From: Cytobacillus oceanisediminis 2691
GTDB lineage: Bacteria; Bacillota; Bacilli; Bacillales; Cytobacillaceae
Length of the DNA stretch: 62,045 nucleotides
Reading direction: 5' to 3'
Assembly (NCBI RefSeq): GCF_007678455.1
Contig: NZ_VEEP01000014.1
Coordinates: 1-62,045 of the forward strand
This document shows positions 1,387 to 49,160 of the stretch, in pieces. The translations under genes were made by a program, and so were the position numbers. The notes under the pieces were generated by a model. The model saw only the letters and a program-made list of their open reading frames with translations. It was not told where the DNA came from and searched no databases. Numbering within the stretch: position 1 is the stretch's first letter; every line of letters begins with the position of its first letter.

Positions 1387-2101
1387 ACTTTTCCCAGAAT
1401 TTTTGTTCGTCAGTAAAATACCTGAGCATTCCTTCATAAATGGAGGCTGCAACTTTTTCCTGGTATGGCTCCTGTTTGAGGTTTGCCGCTTCTCCTGGAT
1501 TTGACAGGAAGCCGATTTCTATCAGGACTCCAGGCTTATTCGTATGCTTCAGCAGGTATATGCTGTTTGCTGACTTTGCATCCCGGTCCGTGTTTTCAAG
1601 GTTCCGGCGCAATTCATCCTGGATGAGCTTGGCGGCTCGTTTGTTTTCTTTGTAATTGGTTGAATAAAAAGTCTGTGCACCTCTCCATTTTGAGGACGGG
1701 ATCGCATTTAAATGGATTGTCGCAAAAAAATCAGCTTCAGATTCATTGATCAGATTGAGACGTCTCTTTAAATCCTGGACCTTTCGTTTGCTGTATCCCT
1801 TGAGGCCCTTATCCGCAAGGTCGACATCCGTCTCGCGCGTCATGATGACAAGCGCGCCTTGCTGCTGAAGGTAATCCCGGAGCTTGAGGGAAACATTCAG
1901 CGCGATTTCTTTTTCAAAAGGATCGTCATCCCCCGCCCCCGGGTCGACTCCTCCATGCCCCGGGTCCAGATAAATGATTTTCCCCGAAAGCGGCAGATTC
2001 CAGGATTCCCATGAATCATTTTCGGTAAAATCATACTGCAATATAAGGAACAGCACAGCGAGGCCGGCTGCAAATAATCCGATTTTAAGTTTTTTCAGCA
2101 T
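1385..2101 (-). CDS. cwlD: Germination-type N-acetylmuramoyl-L-alanine amidase CwlD
   Basis: A 238-residue zinc amidase (Amidase_3). A single hydrophobic anchor (about residues 7-24) places it on the outer face of a membrane. The catalytic domain begins at LDPGHGG (zinc His), followed by the EKEIALN glutamate, the ATIHLNA histidine and VLIEIGFLSN near the C terminus. CwlD, with PdaA, makes muramic-delta-lactam in spore cortex peptidoglycan. Its position between ybaK and salA matches B. subtilis. The start region is enclosed by an inverted repeat described separately. Confidence 0.93.
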   Translation of the reverse strand: MLKKLKIGLFAAGLAVLFLILQYDFTENDSWESWNLPLSGKIIYLDPGHGGVDPGAGDDDPFEKEIALNVSLKLRDYLQQQGALVIMTRETDVDLADKGLKGYSKRKVQDLKRRLNLINESEADFFATIHLNAIPSSKWRGAQTFYSTNYKENKRAAKLIQDELRRNLENTDRDAKSANSIYLLKHTNKPGVLIEIGFLSNPGEAANLKQEPYQEKVAASIYEGMLRYFTDEQKFWEK

Positions 2102-2168
2102 GTTCTAAACCATCCTTCCAGCTAGTCCCTGATAATAAACTATATGGGACAGGTAGACGGTTTAGAAC
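2102..2168 (-). promoter_or_regulatory. Inverted repeat spanning the cwlD ribosome binding site
   Basis: GTTCTAAACC at 2102-2111 is perfectly complementary to GGTTTAGAAC at 2159-2168, and inside it GTCCC (2125-2129) pairs with GGGAC (2146-2150). In the cwlD mRNA the downstream arm lies between the ribosome site (GGAAGGAT) and the ATG, so folding would hide the start. No T-run follows, so it is not a terminator. It could instead be a DNA operator. Confidence 0.5.
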
Positions 2169-2175
2169 TATGCTG

Positions 2176-2619
2176 TTAATGCAGTCTCAGCTTATATTTC
2201 TTTTCACCCTTCATGAAGCCATCTCTCCACCAGCTGTCGACATACTGTTCACAAAGGTAGTAAAGCTCTTCTGATCCAACTCCCTCTTCTCCCTTCCCCC
2301 AAAACAGGAAAAAGTTGTACAGGGTATCAATCAAATGCCGCTCTTCTTTTTCACAGCGAGGCTTTACCGCTTCCATCGGCTCGCCGAAGTAACCTAAGCG
2401 GCTGAACTTGGCGCCAAGTAAATATGCTTCAATTGCTACATCATAACAGGCTTCCTCGATTCCTGAATTCATGATGAGGTTTGAGGTCAGCCTTGAAGAG
2501 CCAAAATATTGTTTCACCCTGGCCTGCAGGATGTTAATGGTTAGTTCACGGAGCATCGAACGCTCATATTTAACTTGTTTCTGTTTTCTTTTATCTATAA
2601 ATGTCGTTACGACGTTCAA
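2176..2619 (-). CDS. ybaK: YbaK family protein (DUF2521), function unknown
   Basis: A 147-residue soluble protein matching the Bacillus YbaK/DUF2521 family (motifs KQVKYERSMLREL and DSWWRDGF), found next to cwlD in Bacillus. No catalytic motif or membrane segment is visible. I chose the TTG at 2619 because AAGGGGTGAG lies five bases upstream; the longer frame to 2673 would add 18 residues with no ribosome site. Its stop is 75 bases before the cwlD start, so the two are probably co-transcribed with salA. Confidence 0.8.
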   Translation of the reverse strand: MNVVTTFIDKRKQKQVKYERSMLRELTINILQARVKQYFGSSRLTSNLIMNSGIEEACYDVAIEAYLLGAKFSRLGYFGEPMEAVKPRCEKEERHLIDTLYNFFLFWGKGEEGVGSEELYYLCEQYVDSWWRDGFMKGEKKYKLRLH

Positions 2620-2880
2620 AGTATTCTCACCCCTTAGGAAGTAGTGTTCAACCTGCGGGAGTCTGTAATACAACCCAGAACGACGTTTCCTTTTCCAGTT
2701 TTCTCAGTCGTTTACTGAATAATATGGTTCCGGACTCTTTAGGATAAAATGCCCATTTATGGTTATTTTCTTACTATTAAAAATCACTACTATTGAAACT
2801 GTTCTTTAATTTTCAGAATTGTTAGACTTGTTATTACAACTAGAACTCGCTTCAATTTTAATCTCTGAGGAGGGAAAGAT

Positions 2881-3846
2881 ATGGAGCAAGATGTTCGCGT
2901 AATTCCTTACAAAGTAATCGCAGAAGCTGAAGAAACTAATGAGGTACCTCAAGGTGTAGAGTTAATCCAGGCACCGAAGCTTTGGGACAGAACCAAAGGG
3001 AAAGGCATTAAAGTTGCTGTGCTCGACACAGGCTGTGAAACAACCCACCCTGATTTAAAGGACCAAATTATCGGCGGCAGGAATTTTACCGACGACGACC
3101 GCAGCAATCCGGATATTTATACTGATTATAACGGACATGGGACCCACGTTGCAGGGACGATCGCTGCCCATGAAAATGATGATGGTGTAATAGGCGTCGC
3201 CCCAGAGGCAGGACTGTTGATCGTAAAAGTATTGAACAAGGCCGGCTCTGGGAAATATGAGTGGATAATCAAAGGGATTCAATATGCGATTGACCAGGAA
3301 GTGGATATAATCTCCATGTCGCTGGGCGGTCCCGCTGATGTCCCTGAATTGCATGAAGTGATCAAAGCCGCTGTTGAAAAAAATATTCTCGTCGTATGTG
3401 CAGCAGGCAATGAAGGTGATGGTGATGACTCGACCAACGAGTTTGCCTATCCTGGCGCCTATAATGAAGTCATCAGTGTTGGAGCCGTAAACCTGGAAAG
3501 AGGTTCATCGGAATTCACCAACTCGAATAATGAGGTGGATGTCGTGGCGCCGGGAGAGCGGATCACGTCCACTTATCTGAATGGTAAATATGCCACATTG
3601 AGCGGAACCTCAATGGCTGCACCACACGTATCCGGCGCCCTTGCTTTAATCAAAACACTCGCAAATGCCCAGTTTGAGCGTGATCTGACTGAGCCTGAAT
3701 TATATGGACAATTAATTAAGCGTACGGTCCCGCTCGGAAATTCACCTAAGCTTGAAGGCAATGGCCTTGTCTATCTCACAGTTCCGGAGCATCTTGCTGA
3801 AATCTTTAGCCAGAGCTTCAAAACGATGGTTATGGATGCGATATGA
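2881..3846 (+). CDS. Intracellular subtilisin-like serine protease (ISP type)
   Basis: A 321-residue S8 protease without signal peptide. The catalytic triad is Asp49 (AVLDTG), His86 (NGHGTHVAGT) and Ser244 (SGTSMAAPH), with oxyanion Asn177 (AAGNEG). The short N-terminal extension carries VIPY at 7-10, corresponding to the LIPY inhibitory motif of intracellular subtilisins, which are cytoplasmic zymogens activated by propeptide removal in stationary phase. It starts an island on the strand opposite to all neighbours; GGAGGG lies eight bases before the ATG. The stop overlaps the start of the downstream nuclease gene by four bases, implying translational coupling. It resembles ispA but genomic context differs, so I give no symbol. 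Confidence 0.93.
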   Translation: MEQDVRVIPYKVIAEAEETNEVPQGVELIQAPKLWDRTKGKGIKVAVLDTGCETTHPDLKDQIIGGRNFTDDDRSNPDIYTDYNGHGTHVAGTIAAHENDDGVIGVAPEAGLLIVKVLNKAGSGKYEWIIKGIQYAIDQEVDIISMSLGGPADVPELHEVIKAAVEKNILVVCAAGNEGDGDDSTNEFAYPGAYNEVISVGAVNLERGSSEFTNSNNEVDVVAPGERITSTYLNGKYATLSGTSMAAPHVSGALALIKTLANAQFERDLTEPELYGQLIKRTVPLGNSPKLEGNGLVYLTVPEHLAEIFSQSFKTMVMDAI

Positions 3847-4616
3847 TTCTCTCGGCCAGTGAGGCGTACATTCATAACATCGAGAATAAGCCGTATTATG
3901 ATGCAGAAATGGACGCGAAAATGCGCGATAGATATTATTGTGACGCTGTTTTCGTTCCAGAGGAGCTCCATTTGCTGCTGACAAGAACCCACACCAACCA
4001 TCTAAAATACTCGCCGCATGAGTATGTTTATCCTTGGGTGGACCTGCAGGAGAACCTTCAACTGAAGAGCCTCTACTCCGGCCAGGAACTCGACCCCGTT
4101 GAGGTGATCGAGGAGGACTTGCGGCTCTTCAAAACTTTGAAGGAGGGAGGTTTTTCAGCTAGTTCTGATATTCTTTTCAATACAGAACATGTTGTACCCC
4201 AATCGTGGTTTGATGGAAAGGAGCCAATGCGAGGCGACCTGCATCACCTGTTTGCCTGCGAGCCAGCATGCAACAGCATGAGAAGCAATCATCCGTTTTA
4301 CGATTTCCTGACCTATGAACCTGAGCTTGCTGCATCTGGAATAAGGTCTGGCTGCGGAATGGTAGAAGAAGGTAAATTTGAACCCGAATACGGTAAAGGA
4401 ATTGTTGCAAGAGCCGTGTTTTATTTCACTTTGAGATACAAGGATGTCATCCAACTTGATGCTCAGATGAACTTCGAGGTTCTGCTTGGCTGGCACCAAA
4501 ATCACCCGGTTACCTTGTATGAAAAGCATCGGAATGCCGCCATCCAGGAATTGCAGGGAAACCGCAACCCTTTCATTGATTTTCCGGAGATGACAGAAGT
4601 AATGTTAGGCTTATAA
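3843..4616 (+). CDS. Endonuclease I family nuclease without signal peptide
   Basis: A 257-residue protein with the endonuclease I (EndA/BsnB-type, His-Me finger) signature: NTEHVVPQSWF at about 113-123, GDLHHLFACEPACNSMRSNHPF at about 131-152, and a conserved C-terminal WHQNHPV...NRNPFID segment. Such enzymes cleave DNA and/or RNA with a bound divalent metal. Family members are usually exported, but the N terminus here (MILSASEAYIHNIENKPYYD) has no signal peptide or lipobox, so it should be cytoplasmic. The ATG overlaps the protease stop in an ATGA arrangement. A strong terminator follows, so protease and nuclease form a two-gene unit. Confidence 0.88.
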   Translation: MILSASEAYIHNIENKPYYDAEMDAKMRDRYYCDAVFVPEELHLLLTRTHTNHLKYSPHEYVYPWVDLQENLQLKSLYSGQELDPVEVIEEDLRLFKTLKEGGFSASSDILFNTEHVVPQSWFDGKEPMRGDLHHLFACEPACNSMRSNHPFYDFLTYEPELAASGIRSGCGMVEEGKFEPEYGKGIVARAVFYFTLRYKDVIQLDAQMNFEVLLGWHQNHPVTLYEKHRNAAIQELQGNRNPFIDFPEMTEVMLGL

Positions 4617-4624
4617 AAAGGAAT

Positions 4625-4657
4625 CCGCCTGAGTGAGATTAAGTTCAGGCGGTTTTT
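4625..4657 (+). terminator. Terminator of the protease-nuclease operon
   Basis: CCGCCTGA and TCAGGCGG form a perfect 8-bp stem around a 12-base loop, followed by TTTTT, nine bases after the nuclease stop codon. Confidence 0.9.
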
Positions 4658-4939
4658 CATGTTGCACAGTATTAATAAAGATCTTAATCCCAGTTGACAC
4701 CGATTCTACCCCGATGGGTCACTTATAAACCCCATTACTTCTTATTTGTTCTCCCCTTGAGCTAAAATAGCCAGCTTTGATTTTAAGTGCACCCGCTAAA
4801 AAACCGTAATTGGTTTTTTCCTACATTCGTTTCCGCCATCCCGGATTTTTCATTCTCATATTTCCTCTAATTGCTAACGCCATTACGATGACTGTCAGGG
4901 CAAGCTAATTCAGAATACAGAACGAAGGGATGGATTTCT
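4658..4939. other. Intergenic region with no recognised element
   Basis: This stretch should carry the promoter of the acidic-protein gene, but I see no hexamer pair with correct spacing. AAAACC and GGTTTTTT near 4799-4818 could form a small hairpin. No credible coding frame is present. Confidence 0.4.
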
Positions 4940-5623
4940 ATGTCGATGGAATGGTTTGATCGGGTAGTCGGTGAGTTGCAGGATCATCTTGAGTCTATTT
5001 GTGAAAAATATGACCAGGAAGGCCAGATGGCGGTTGAAAGAGGATCCAAGCATCCACGAATTCAGTTCTTTGTGGACTATGATGATGGTGAAAGAGATTA
5101 TTTTTATATATTATACTTTGACCCGCATAATGAGGAATTTTATACAGAGACCTTTGACGAAGAGCTCGAGCAGCCTGCCAGAGTGATTCTTTCGGATATT
5201 GATGACATTGTTGATGCGGTCCATGAGGGCTTCCATGACTACATAAACGATGACGAGGAGATTGAAGTCGTTTATGCTGCGGATAATGATGACAGCTTAT
5301 ACTCGGACACAGACGAAGAGGACGATGAAGATCTTTATATGACTGAAATCATCGATGACGACATCCTTGAAGAAATCGATGTTGAGTGGGAAACTCCTGA
5401 GGTCACCGCCTTTTTTAAGGAGGATGACGTGGAAGTGACGTACCAATTCGGACTGGTCGAGGCAACTGGAGACGGTGTCCTTCGCCGTATCAACCGGATT
5501 TGGACTGAAGATGATGAAATGTTCAAAGACGAAACGAACTTTATTTTCACCAAAGAAGAAGCACCGACAATCATCGCCATGATCGCGAGCCATATGGATT
5601 CAATGCAGGGTTACGAAGATTAA
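4940..5623 (+). CDS. Extremely acidic protein of unknown family
   Basis: A 227-residue protein that I do not recognise. It has 71 Asp/Glu against 13 Lys/Arg, a net charge near -58, concentrated at about residues 103-155 (including TDEEDDEDLY). No signal peptide, membrane segment or cysteine cluster is seen. The flanks are mixed alpha/beta-like (FVDYDDGERDYFYILYF and VTYQFGLVEATGDGVLRRI), so it is not simply disordered. AAGGGATGG lies before the ATG; the Met at codon 3 is an alternative start. It lies on the same strand as the protease-nuclease pair but after their terminator. A polyanionic DNA-mimic or inhibitor role is conceivable but unproven. Confidence 0.75.
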   Translation: MSMEWFDRVVGELQDHLESICEKYDQEGQMAVERGSKHPRIQFFVDYDDGERDYFYILYFDPHNEEFYTETFDEELEQPARVILSDIDDIVDAVHEGFHDYINDDEEIEVVYAADNDDSLYSDTDEEDDEDLYMTEIIDDDILEEIDVEWETPEVTAFFKEDDVEVTYQFGLVEATGDGVLRRINRIWTEDDEMFKDETNFIFTKEEAPTIIAMIASHMDSMQGYED

Positions 5624-5664: not shown

Positions 5665-5795
5665 TTAGGCTGGTTTTCGCGTCAATCGGCTGCTTTTCGA
5701 ATATGTAATTCATAAATTTTAGACCTAAAAGTATAAATTTAGCCGGTTAGAATGTAACAAATATAGCCTCCAACCTATGCTTCTTACACAATAAA

Positions 5796-5912
5796 ATTTT
5801 ATTTGGCGATAATCAGATTTTATTGGCGGTTTTCACAATTTTATTGGCGATTGTCTCTTTTTATTGGCGATAATTTATTTTTATTGGCGATTTTCAGATT
5901 TTATTGGCGGAC
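5796..5912. repeat. Six-copy array with 20-21 bp period
   Basis: The core TTTATTGGCGAT occurs six times; the GGCG starts fall at 5805, 5825, 5846, 5866, 5886 and 5906, so spacing is 20, 21, 20, 20, 20. The 7-9 bases between cores are AT-rich and vary. It lies between the convergent terminators of the acidic-protein gene and rpsI and encodes nothing. A related array is at 61770-61886. Confidence 0.85.
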
Positions 5913-26284: not shown

Positions 26285-26660
26285 TTATATCGTTACAGTA
26301 TTGCCTTTAACGATTAAACCTGTTTATCTGCTTTAATGTTACGATAATCTCGCTCACTTCTTTTTTATCCGCTCATTATCTCCATTAATGTATCGATAAT
26401 CTCCCCCAATTCTTTTTTATCCGCTCATTATCGCTTTTATGGTACGATAATCCCGCTCACTTCTTTTTTATCGGTACATTATTGCTTTTAATGTATCGAT
26501 AATCTCGCTCACTTCTTTTTTATCCGTAAATGATTTGCCTTGAAAGTTATAATATTGTTCATTTCTATATTTCCGTTCATTATCTGCCTTAAGGTAACAA
26601 TATCCCCGTTCGGTGCATTATCAGCATTTATAGATACGTAAGTTCATCAATCTCTAAATT
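26285..26660. repeat. Degenerate 51-52 bp tandem array with internal hairpins
   Basis: Units starting TTTTTTATC begin at 26361, 26413, 26464 and 26516 (spacing 52, 51, 52), with decayed units on both sides. Each central unit contains ATTATC or ATTATCG and, about 14 bases later, CGATAAT or GATAAT, which can pair. The unit also carries a CTCGCTCACTTC tail. The array fills much of the tuf-rpsJ gap and encodes nothing. The stretch 25933-26284 holds no other recognised element except the small frame at 26116. Confidence 0.8.
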
Positions 26661-48932: not shown

Positions 48933-49160
48933 CCGGGCACATATCAATGTTTTATATGCCCCGTTTCCACCCTTTGCCCTGAGACCGGGCATATATCCAT
49001 GTTTTATGTGCCCCGTTTTCATCCCTTTGCCTGAAACCGGGAACATATCCGTGTTTTATGTGCCCCGTTTTCATCCCTTTGCCTGAGATCGGGTACATAT
49101 CGGTGCTTTATGTGCCCCGTTTCCACCCCTTGCCCTGAGACCGGGCACATATCCGTGATT
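48933..49160. repeat. Tandem array of 52-bp hairpin units in the cysE leader
   Basis: Four full units of exactly 52 bp start at 48933, 48985, 49037 and 49089, with a partial fifth at 49141. Each contains GGGCACATA (or close variants) and, about nine bases later, TATGTGCCC, which pair into a 9-10 bp hairpin; the rest reads CGTTTCCACCCTTTGCCCTG with small changes. It lies between the T-box terminator and cysE, so it is transcribed whenever the T-box reads through. Confidence 0.92.

Follow-up and report, generated by a model that had tools for sequence, protein, structure and literature searches.

Why should the gene of an intracellular subtilisin (ISP) overlap the gene of an endonuclease I-family nuclease that carries no export signal? 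The question is raised by a 62,045-nucleotide stretch of DNA from Cytobacillus oceanisediminis 2691, the whole of which was analyzed and is called the window below. The available part of one report (PMC3901451) calls the physiological role of IspA, the major intracellular subtilisin of Bacillus subtilis, unclear, and a conserved operon partner is a direct, testable lead on this role: ISP may belong, as one of two components, to a program in which protein and nucleic acid are recycled together. The pair also makes one ask how an endonuclease I-type enzyme that lacks an export signal can be tolerated inside the cell. An earlier sequence-only reading of the window had described the pair with its 4-base overlap, and we found both open reading frames and the shared ATGA as described.

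Features of the ISP-nuclease locus in the window (positions counted from the first base of the window)
Feature	Position	Strand	Basis
Promoter-like element of the extended -10 type, TGTTAGACT, some 61 nt upstream of the start of ISP	2820..2828	+	Cross-locus comparison
Shine-Dalgarno sequence AGGAGGG of the ISP gene	2868..2874	+	Sequence; kept in upstream alignments
Intracellular subtilisin (ISP1) gene, 321 aa, VIPY propeptide motif, triad Asp49/His86/Ser244	2881..3846	+	Pfam, PDB match, alignment
ATGA stop/start overlap, TGA of ISP on ATG of nuclease	3843..3846	+	Sequence
Endonuclease I-family (PF04231) nuclease gene, no signal peptide, 257 aa, E115-H116, N144, C139/C143/C171	3843..4616	+	Pfam, alignments, hydropathy
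Terminator-like hairpin, 10-bp stem 4625-4652, then T-run	4625..4660	+	Hairpin scan

Both proteins are members of known enzyme families. ISP matched Pfam Peptidase_S8 (8.3e-68), and its best PDB match by sequence was 7xr8, "Major intracellular serine protease" (6.8e-135). The proposed catalytic triad was borne out, since Asp, His, and Ser occupy these positions in all 47 paired ISPs, the window included. ISPs are zymogens, and the available text of PMC9995970 reports calcium-dependent maturation for three other ISPs. Using the propeptide motif [LVI]-[IFLV]-P-[YFH], taken from the accessible part of PMC6220982, we located VIPY at residues 7 to 10 of the window ISP and found the motif in every one of the 47 paired ISPs; it was seen in 6 of 10 ISP1 genes without a nuclease and in 7 of 8 genes of a second ISP clade (ISP2) with one, and automatic start choice may be the cause of these lower counts. 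The highest N-terminal hydropathy among 36 paired ISPs was 1.31, against 2.88 for the membrane anchor of CwlD; thus, by this simple test with one control, ISP has no signal peptide.

The nuclease matched Pfam Endonuclease_1 at 2.5e-32 and 112.9 bits, against a curated cut-off of 25, and all six fold matches listed were endonuclease I entries, although confidence in the model was low near the active site. This family (PF04231) includes EndA of Escherichia coli and the secreted nuclease Bsn/YurI of B. subtilis. Residues E115, H116, and N144 were unchanged in 52 of 52 relatives, and the E-H and N positions align to those of Vvn, whose active site we take to be E79, H80, and N127; the E-H stretch aligned only in a sub-threshold piece. 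C139, C143, and C171 were likewise unchanged in all 52 relatives, and C139 and C143 stand opposite no cysteine in the Vvn alignment; perhaps the three cysteines form a metal site suited to the cytoplasm. The nuclease does lack an export signal, as far as a simple hydropathy test with the CwlD anchor as its single control can tell: no strongly hydrophobic stretch was found at the N terminus (best 11-mer mean, 0.79, versus 2.88 for the anchor), and we therefore do not file the enzyme as a secreted endonuclease I. All 46 type-A and 6 type-B relatives also stayed below the anchor (highest, 1.81 versus 2.88), so that the absence of an export signal looks like a property of the subfamily. The same genome encodes another PF04231 nuclease that stands alone and lacks a signal peptide (G000:C332:278284-279102; loci L002 and L218), and a type-B copy or fragment occurs in 20 of 21 genomes of the window's genus.

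The joint between the two genes is highly conserved. Among 35 named paired loci, 31 have an overlap of 4 nt, three of 1 nt, and one of 0 nt, so that with the window the 4-nt overlap is kept in 32 of 36. No site comparable to the strong AGGAGGG of the ISP gene was seen by eye before the nuclease gene. The ATGA arrangement suggests translational coupling of ISP and nuclease. Upstream, the pattern TGnTA[ATG]A[ACT]T lies 58 to 65 nt before the ISP start at 35 of 36 paired loci (all but L027) and in none of 108 control windows from the same upstream regions, a descriptive count given that the pattern was framed on these sequences. Even so, the fixed place of the element in otherwise diverged upstream DNA makes it informative. 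It looks like an extended -10 element of the housekeeping type, and its counterpart in L061, TGTTATAAT, has the extended -10 form; a scan with the sigma-70 hexamer consensus found no promoter-like site before ISP. Terminator-like sites in the window numbered 2, against 2.1 expected in shuffled sequences, so that the terminator call rests on the place of the hairpin and its T-run and not on rarity. Judged by sequence, the proposal of a coupled operon is supported, with the overlap kept in 32 of 36 loci, one promoter-like element, one terminator, and 14 flank contexts (see below). Control by CodY was considered and rejected: AATTTTCAGAATTGT at 2808-2822 has 3 mismatches to what we take to be the CodY box consensus, the window holds 4 matches versus 5.64 expected, and the box is absent in most relatives.

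The pair does lie, as had been read, between ybaK (DUF2521 by family search) and rpsI (named from its sequence). It was also said to run opposite to all of its neighbors; this is correct for ybaK, cwlD, a ParA-type gene, and rpsI, which are on the minus strand, but not for a 227-aa open reading frame (4940-5623), which shares the plus strand with the pair and occurs in L019 too. Similarly, insertion in a ribosomal-protein region describes the window's genus only, and in other genera the pair has other neighbors. Cytobacillus and two other genera have a mug-like gene near or upstream of the pair and an MGMT-like gene downstream; the neighbors in L026 and L061 were identified by family searches. 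Elsewhere in the window, tandem repeats were observed at 5794-5909 (20 bases), 26324-26526 (52 bases), and 48933-49154 (52 bases).

In 18 of the 21 genomes from the window's genus, the ISP gene lies next to the nuclease gene, the exceptions being G011 (ISP only), G017 (neither), and G009, a 66% complete genome with a nuclease fragment only. In a survey of 186 genomes of the family with completeness of at least 90%, 125 ISP genes (E<=1e-100) were found in 121 genomes, and 73 genomes had the nuclease (E<=1e-62), with at least 55 adjacent pairs; pair counts here are lower bounds because weaker nucleases beside ISPs (L122 and L123) emerged on reading the loci. Of the 61 closest nuclease matches (E<=1.6e-89), 54 lie directly behind an ISP. 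Seen from the other gene, 70 of the 125 ISP genes, including that of G011, have no adjoining nuclease at E<=1e-62, and the link is thus not obligatory. Restriction of the pair to this strain, which would have spoken against a joint program, is ruled out by its recurrence across the genus, the family, and the order. The 47 paired loci fell into 14 flank-context groups by single linkage on flanking genes shared within about 3 kb, as predicted by a crude ORF caller; flanks were short in L041 and L044, and L100, L101, and L174 were joined with the window's genus. This number of contexts implies that the linkage is more than a shared neighborhood. Three records labeled Chryseobacterium, Pseudomonas, and Paenibacillus (L018, L031, and L034) contain Mesobacillus/Cytobacillus-like loci and are probably mislabeled or mixed assemblies.

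A profile built from 40 nucleases and run on 397 order-level genomes matched 100 genes in 89 genomes. The upstream side was covered for 89 of these genes (70 in fetched loci and 19 by coordinates), among which 32 lie behind a same-strand subtilase (25 ISP1, 5 of the second ISP clade, and 2 another subtilase, one of these broken) and 57 have no subtilase upstream. Within 1.6 kb downstream of the nuclease, no subtilase was found in any of 70 loci, and in every linked case seen, the subtilase gene is the upstream one. The second ISP clade shares about 54% identity with the window ISP and directly precedes type-B PF04231 nucleases in L094, L095, L096, L122, L123, L152, L180, and L181, where spacers ranging from tens of bases to a few hundred take the place of the ATGA overlap. 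A 436-aa subtilase, presumably AprX-like, precedes a type-B nuclease in L140 (3227-5608), and a similar one is fragmented in L149 (3020-5179). The majority of the type-B nucleases examined have no subtilase beside them. Within a phylum sample of 378 genomes, only three had a match at E<=1e-20 (the window's own genome, one genome of the same order, and one weak match elsewhere in the class); in this sample, the nuclease subfamily is almost confined to the order Bacillales. As to other genes beside subtilases, an ISP-like subtilase lies in L124 (1335-4385) in a stretch that by eye is prophage-like, together with genes for an amidase and a sigma factor. In L123, an Amidase_3 gene with SPOR and a glucosaminidase match (1950-3284) runs divergently from the ISP2-nuclease pair, as does, in L122, an amidase gene recognized by eye (1992-3359); these amidases are possible wall-lysis neighbors.

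Phylogenetic analysis placed the type-A nucleases in one clade (46 rows, 100/100), the ISP2-linked nucleases in another, and one of the two linked to other subtilases elsewhere again, indicating that the association with subtilases either arose more than once or is ancient and has frequently disappeared. The 10 ISP1 genes sampled that lack a nuclease were scattered over the ISP tree (9 changes), as would be expected if an ancestral pair had lost its nuclease repeatedly; beside ISP1 genes of this kind, no nuclease remnants were detected at E<=0.1 in 10 loci, nor did we find convincing ISP remnants beside Peribacillus nucleases. Distances of ISP and nuclease were correlated (r = 0.91 for 36 pairs and 0.83 for 14 representatives, with none of 2,000 permutations as high), a result that demonstrates joint inheritance only, since relatedness alone would yield it. 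In 8 of 8 comparisons, dN was lower than dS for both ISP and nuclease, several dS values being saturated, and the same inequality was obtained in six comparisons between partnerless Peribacillus nucleases.

The two genes are separable in cis. In five loci (L047, L062, L063, L110, and L167), the body of ISP is deleted and its start is kept before an open type-A nuclease frame: in L110, L167, and L047 (the last a weak match), the opening codons of ISP run on in frame into the nuclease, and in L063 and L062, remainders of 34 and 41 ISP codons, respectively, each end in an ATGA overlap with the nuclease. Retention of the ISP start suggests that the nuclease is translated via the ISP leader and is worth keeping, and these loci are ready-made natural comparison strains. 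L109 has a frameshifted ISP ahead of an open nuclease frame. Partnerless nucleases had suggested to us that the nuclease works without any ISP; we withdrew this idea, because an intact ISP is encoded elsewhere in 9 of the 11 genomes that were checked for a partner of their partnerless type-A nuclease, so that ISP may act in trans. The nuclease frame is also open in the other two of the 11, G160 and G178, but their ISP frames at E<=1e-60 are all broken, where sequencing error is possible. Two further genomes beyond these 11 (G147 and G167) also combine a partnerless nuclease with an ISP elsewhere.

Taking calcium-dependent maturation together with the literature on IspA and isp, we infer a joint operon for turnover of protein and nucleic acid. 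Our working answer, in which confidence and doubt weigh about the same, is that the pair is a bicistronic operon through which starving or dying cells turn over their contents in a co-ordinated way. One mRNA for both proteins would be made from a housekeeping-type (sigma-A) promoter, and ribosomes ending the ISP gene would start the nuclease gene, giving a fixed protein ratio. The VIPY propeptide would hold ISP as a zymogen until calcium rises in starved, leaking, or lysing cells. Matured ISP would then cut proteins, and the cytoplasmic nuclease, presumably metal dependent like Vvn and EndA, would cut RNA and/or DNA alongside it; survivors, kin, or the forespore might then receive the recovered amino acids and nucleotides.

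The main rival to the turnover operon is a proteolytic switch, in which ISP would act on the nuclease itself, either activating it by N-terminal trimming or removing it during growth, and co-translation would set the ratio of protease to substrate. The constant order of subtilase first and nuclease second, with genes overlapping or close in every linked case, is consistent with such a switch, as is repeated pairing with different subtilase clades; the ISPs found elsewhere in partnerless genomes, G147 and G167 among them, are expected if action in trans is needed. We nevertheless consider it unlikely, given that the nuclease N terminus varies between lineages both in sequence and in length, an odd trait if cleavage there is required, that most of the type-B nucleases examined are located away from any subtilase, and that G160 and G178 may do with broken ISP frames. 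A wider scheme of calcium-gated self-digestion, in which envelope failure would let calcium enter, ISP would mature, the nuclease would be switched on or released, and the dying cell would be liquefied for kin or spore, by a logic that Bacillales would have put together repeatedly, using different subtilases, is in our opinion quite unlikely. It is decidedly unlikely that the two genes have no functional link and form an old chance operon with a nuclease dependent on the ISP leader through coupling: expression dependence alone can hold a pair together, as the leader kept after deletion of the ISP body would imply, and each gene has been lost separately, but it would be left unexplained why the nuclease is also paired with a second ISP clade and with another subtilase, order and strand being the same throughout.

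The turnover operon has also to be set against readings of narrower purpose. A mother-cell-specific sporulation operon, digesting the mother cell after engulfment, would agree with the listing of Clostridioides difficile isp in the sigma-E regulon (in the accessible part of PMC3789822), with cwlD near the pair in the window, and with the amidase genes of L122 and L123, the L123 protein being the one searched against families. It is very unlikely, however, since the upstream element has the extended -10 form seen in L061, unlike the sigma-E listing of C. difficile, and cwlD adjoins the pair in the window's genus only among the loci read. Protease and nuclease effectors occur in bacterial defense systems, and the sequence-only reading had offered, besides turnover, a suicide or anti-phage module, in which a protease activated after infection unleashes the nuclease. 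We regard this as highly improbable. ISP did match the PADLOC models "subtilase" (4.8e-37), a generic one, and IetS (1.7e-08), and one ISP-like gene is in the prophage-like stretch of L124; the nuclease, however, matched nothing in PADLOC or PHROGs, so that the two components do not both match one known anti-phage system in PADLOC. The module thus finds little support, and the presence of the pair in most genomes of the window's genus is unlike a patchy defense gene. By eye, no defense genes were recognized beside the pair in the loci read, and the PADLOC search of its neighbors covered two window genes.

Among the matches listed from the open-licence PMC literature, we found no published description of an ISP-nuclease pair, and the word "nuclease" is absent from the available portions of four papers on ISPs or subtilases (PMC9549277, PMC3901451, PMC9995970, and PMC6220982). 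The same open-licence literature yielded nothing on CodY or ScoC control of ispA. Compared with known systems, the window nuclease is like Vibrio Vvn/endonuclease I in its Pfam match above the cut-off and its aligned E-H and N positions, but it differs from Vvn, EndA, and Bsn in lacking an export signal and in having three invariant cysteines. With protease-nuclease defense modules in general, the locus shares adjacent protease and nuclease genes, whereas its nuclease has no defense profile and the pair is near-core in the genus. ISP resembles IspA/Isp1 of Bacillus (MEROPS S08.030), with which it shares an S8 domain, the D/H/S triad, the lack of a signal peptide, a LIPY/F-type propeptide motif (here VIPY), and best PDB matches to intracellular serine proteases; unlike IspA/Isp1 as described, the window ISP gene has an ATGA-coupled nuclease gene behind it.
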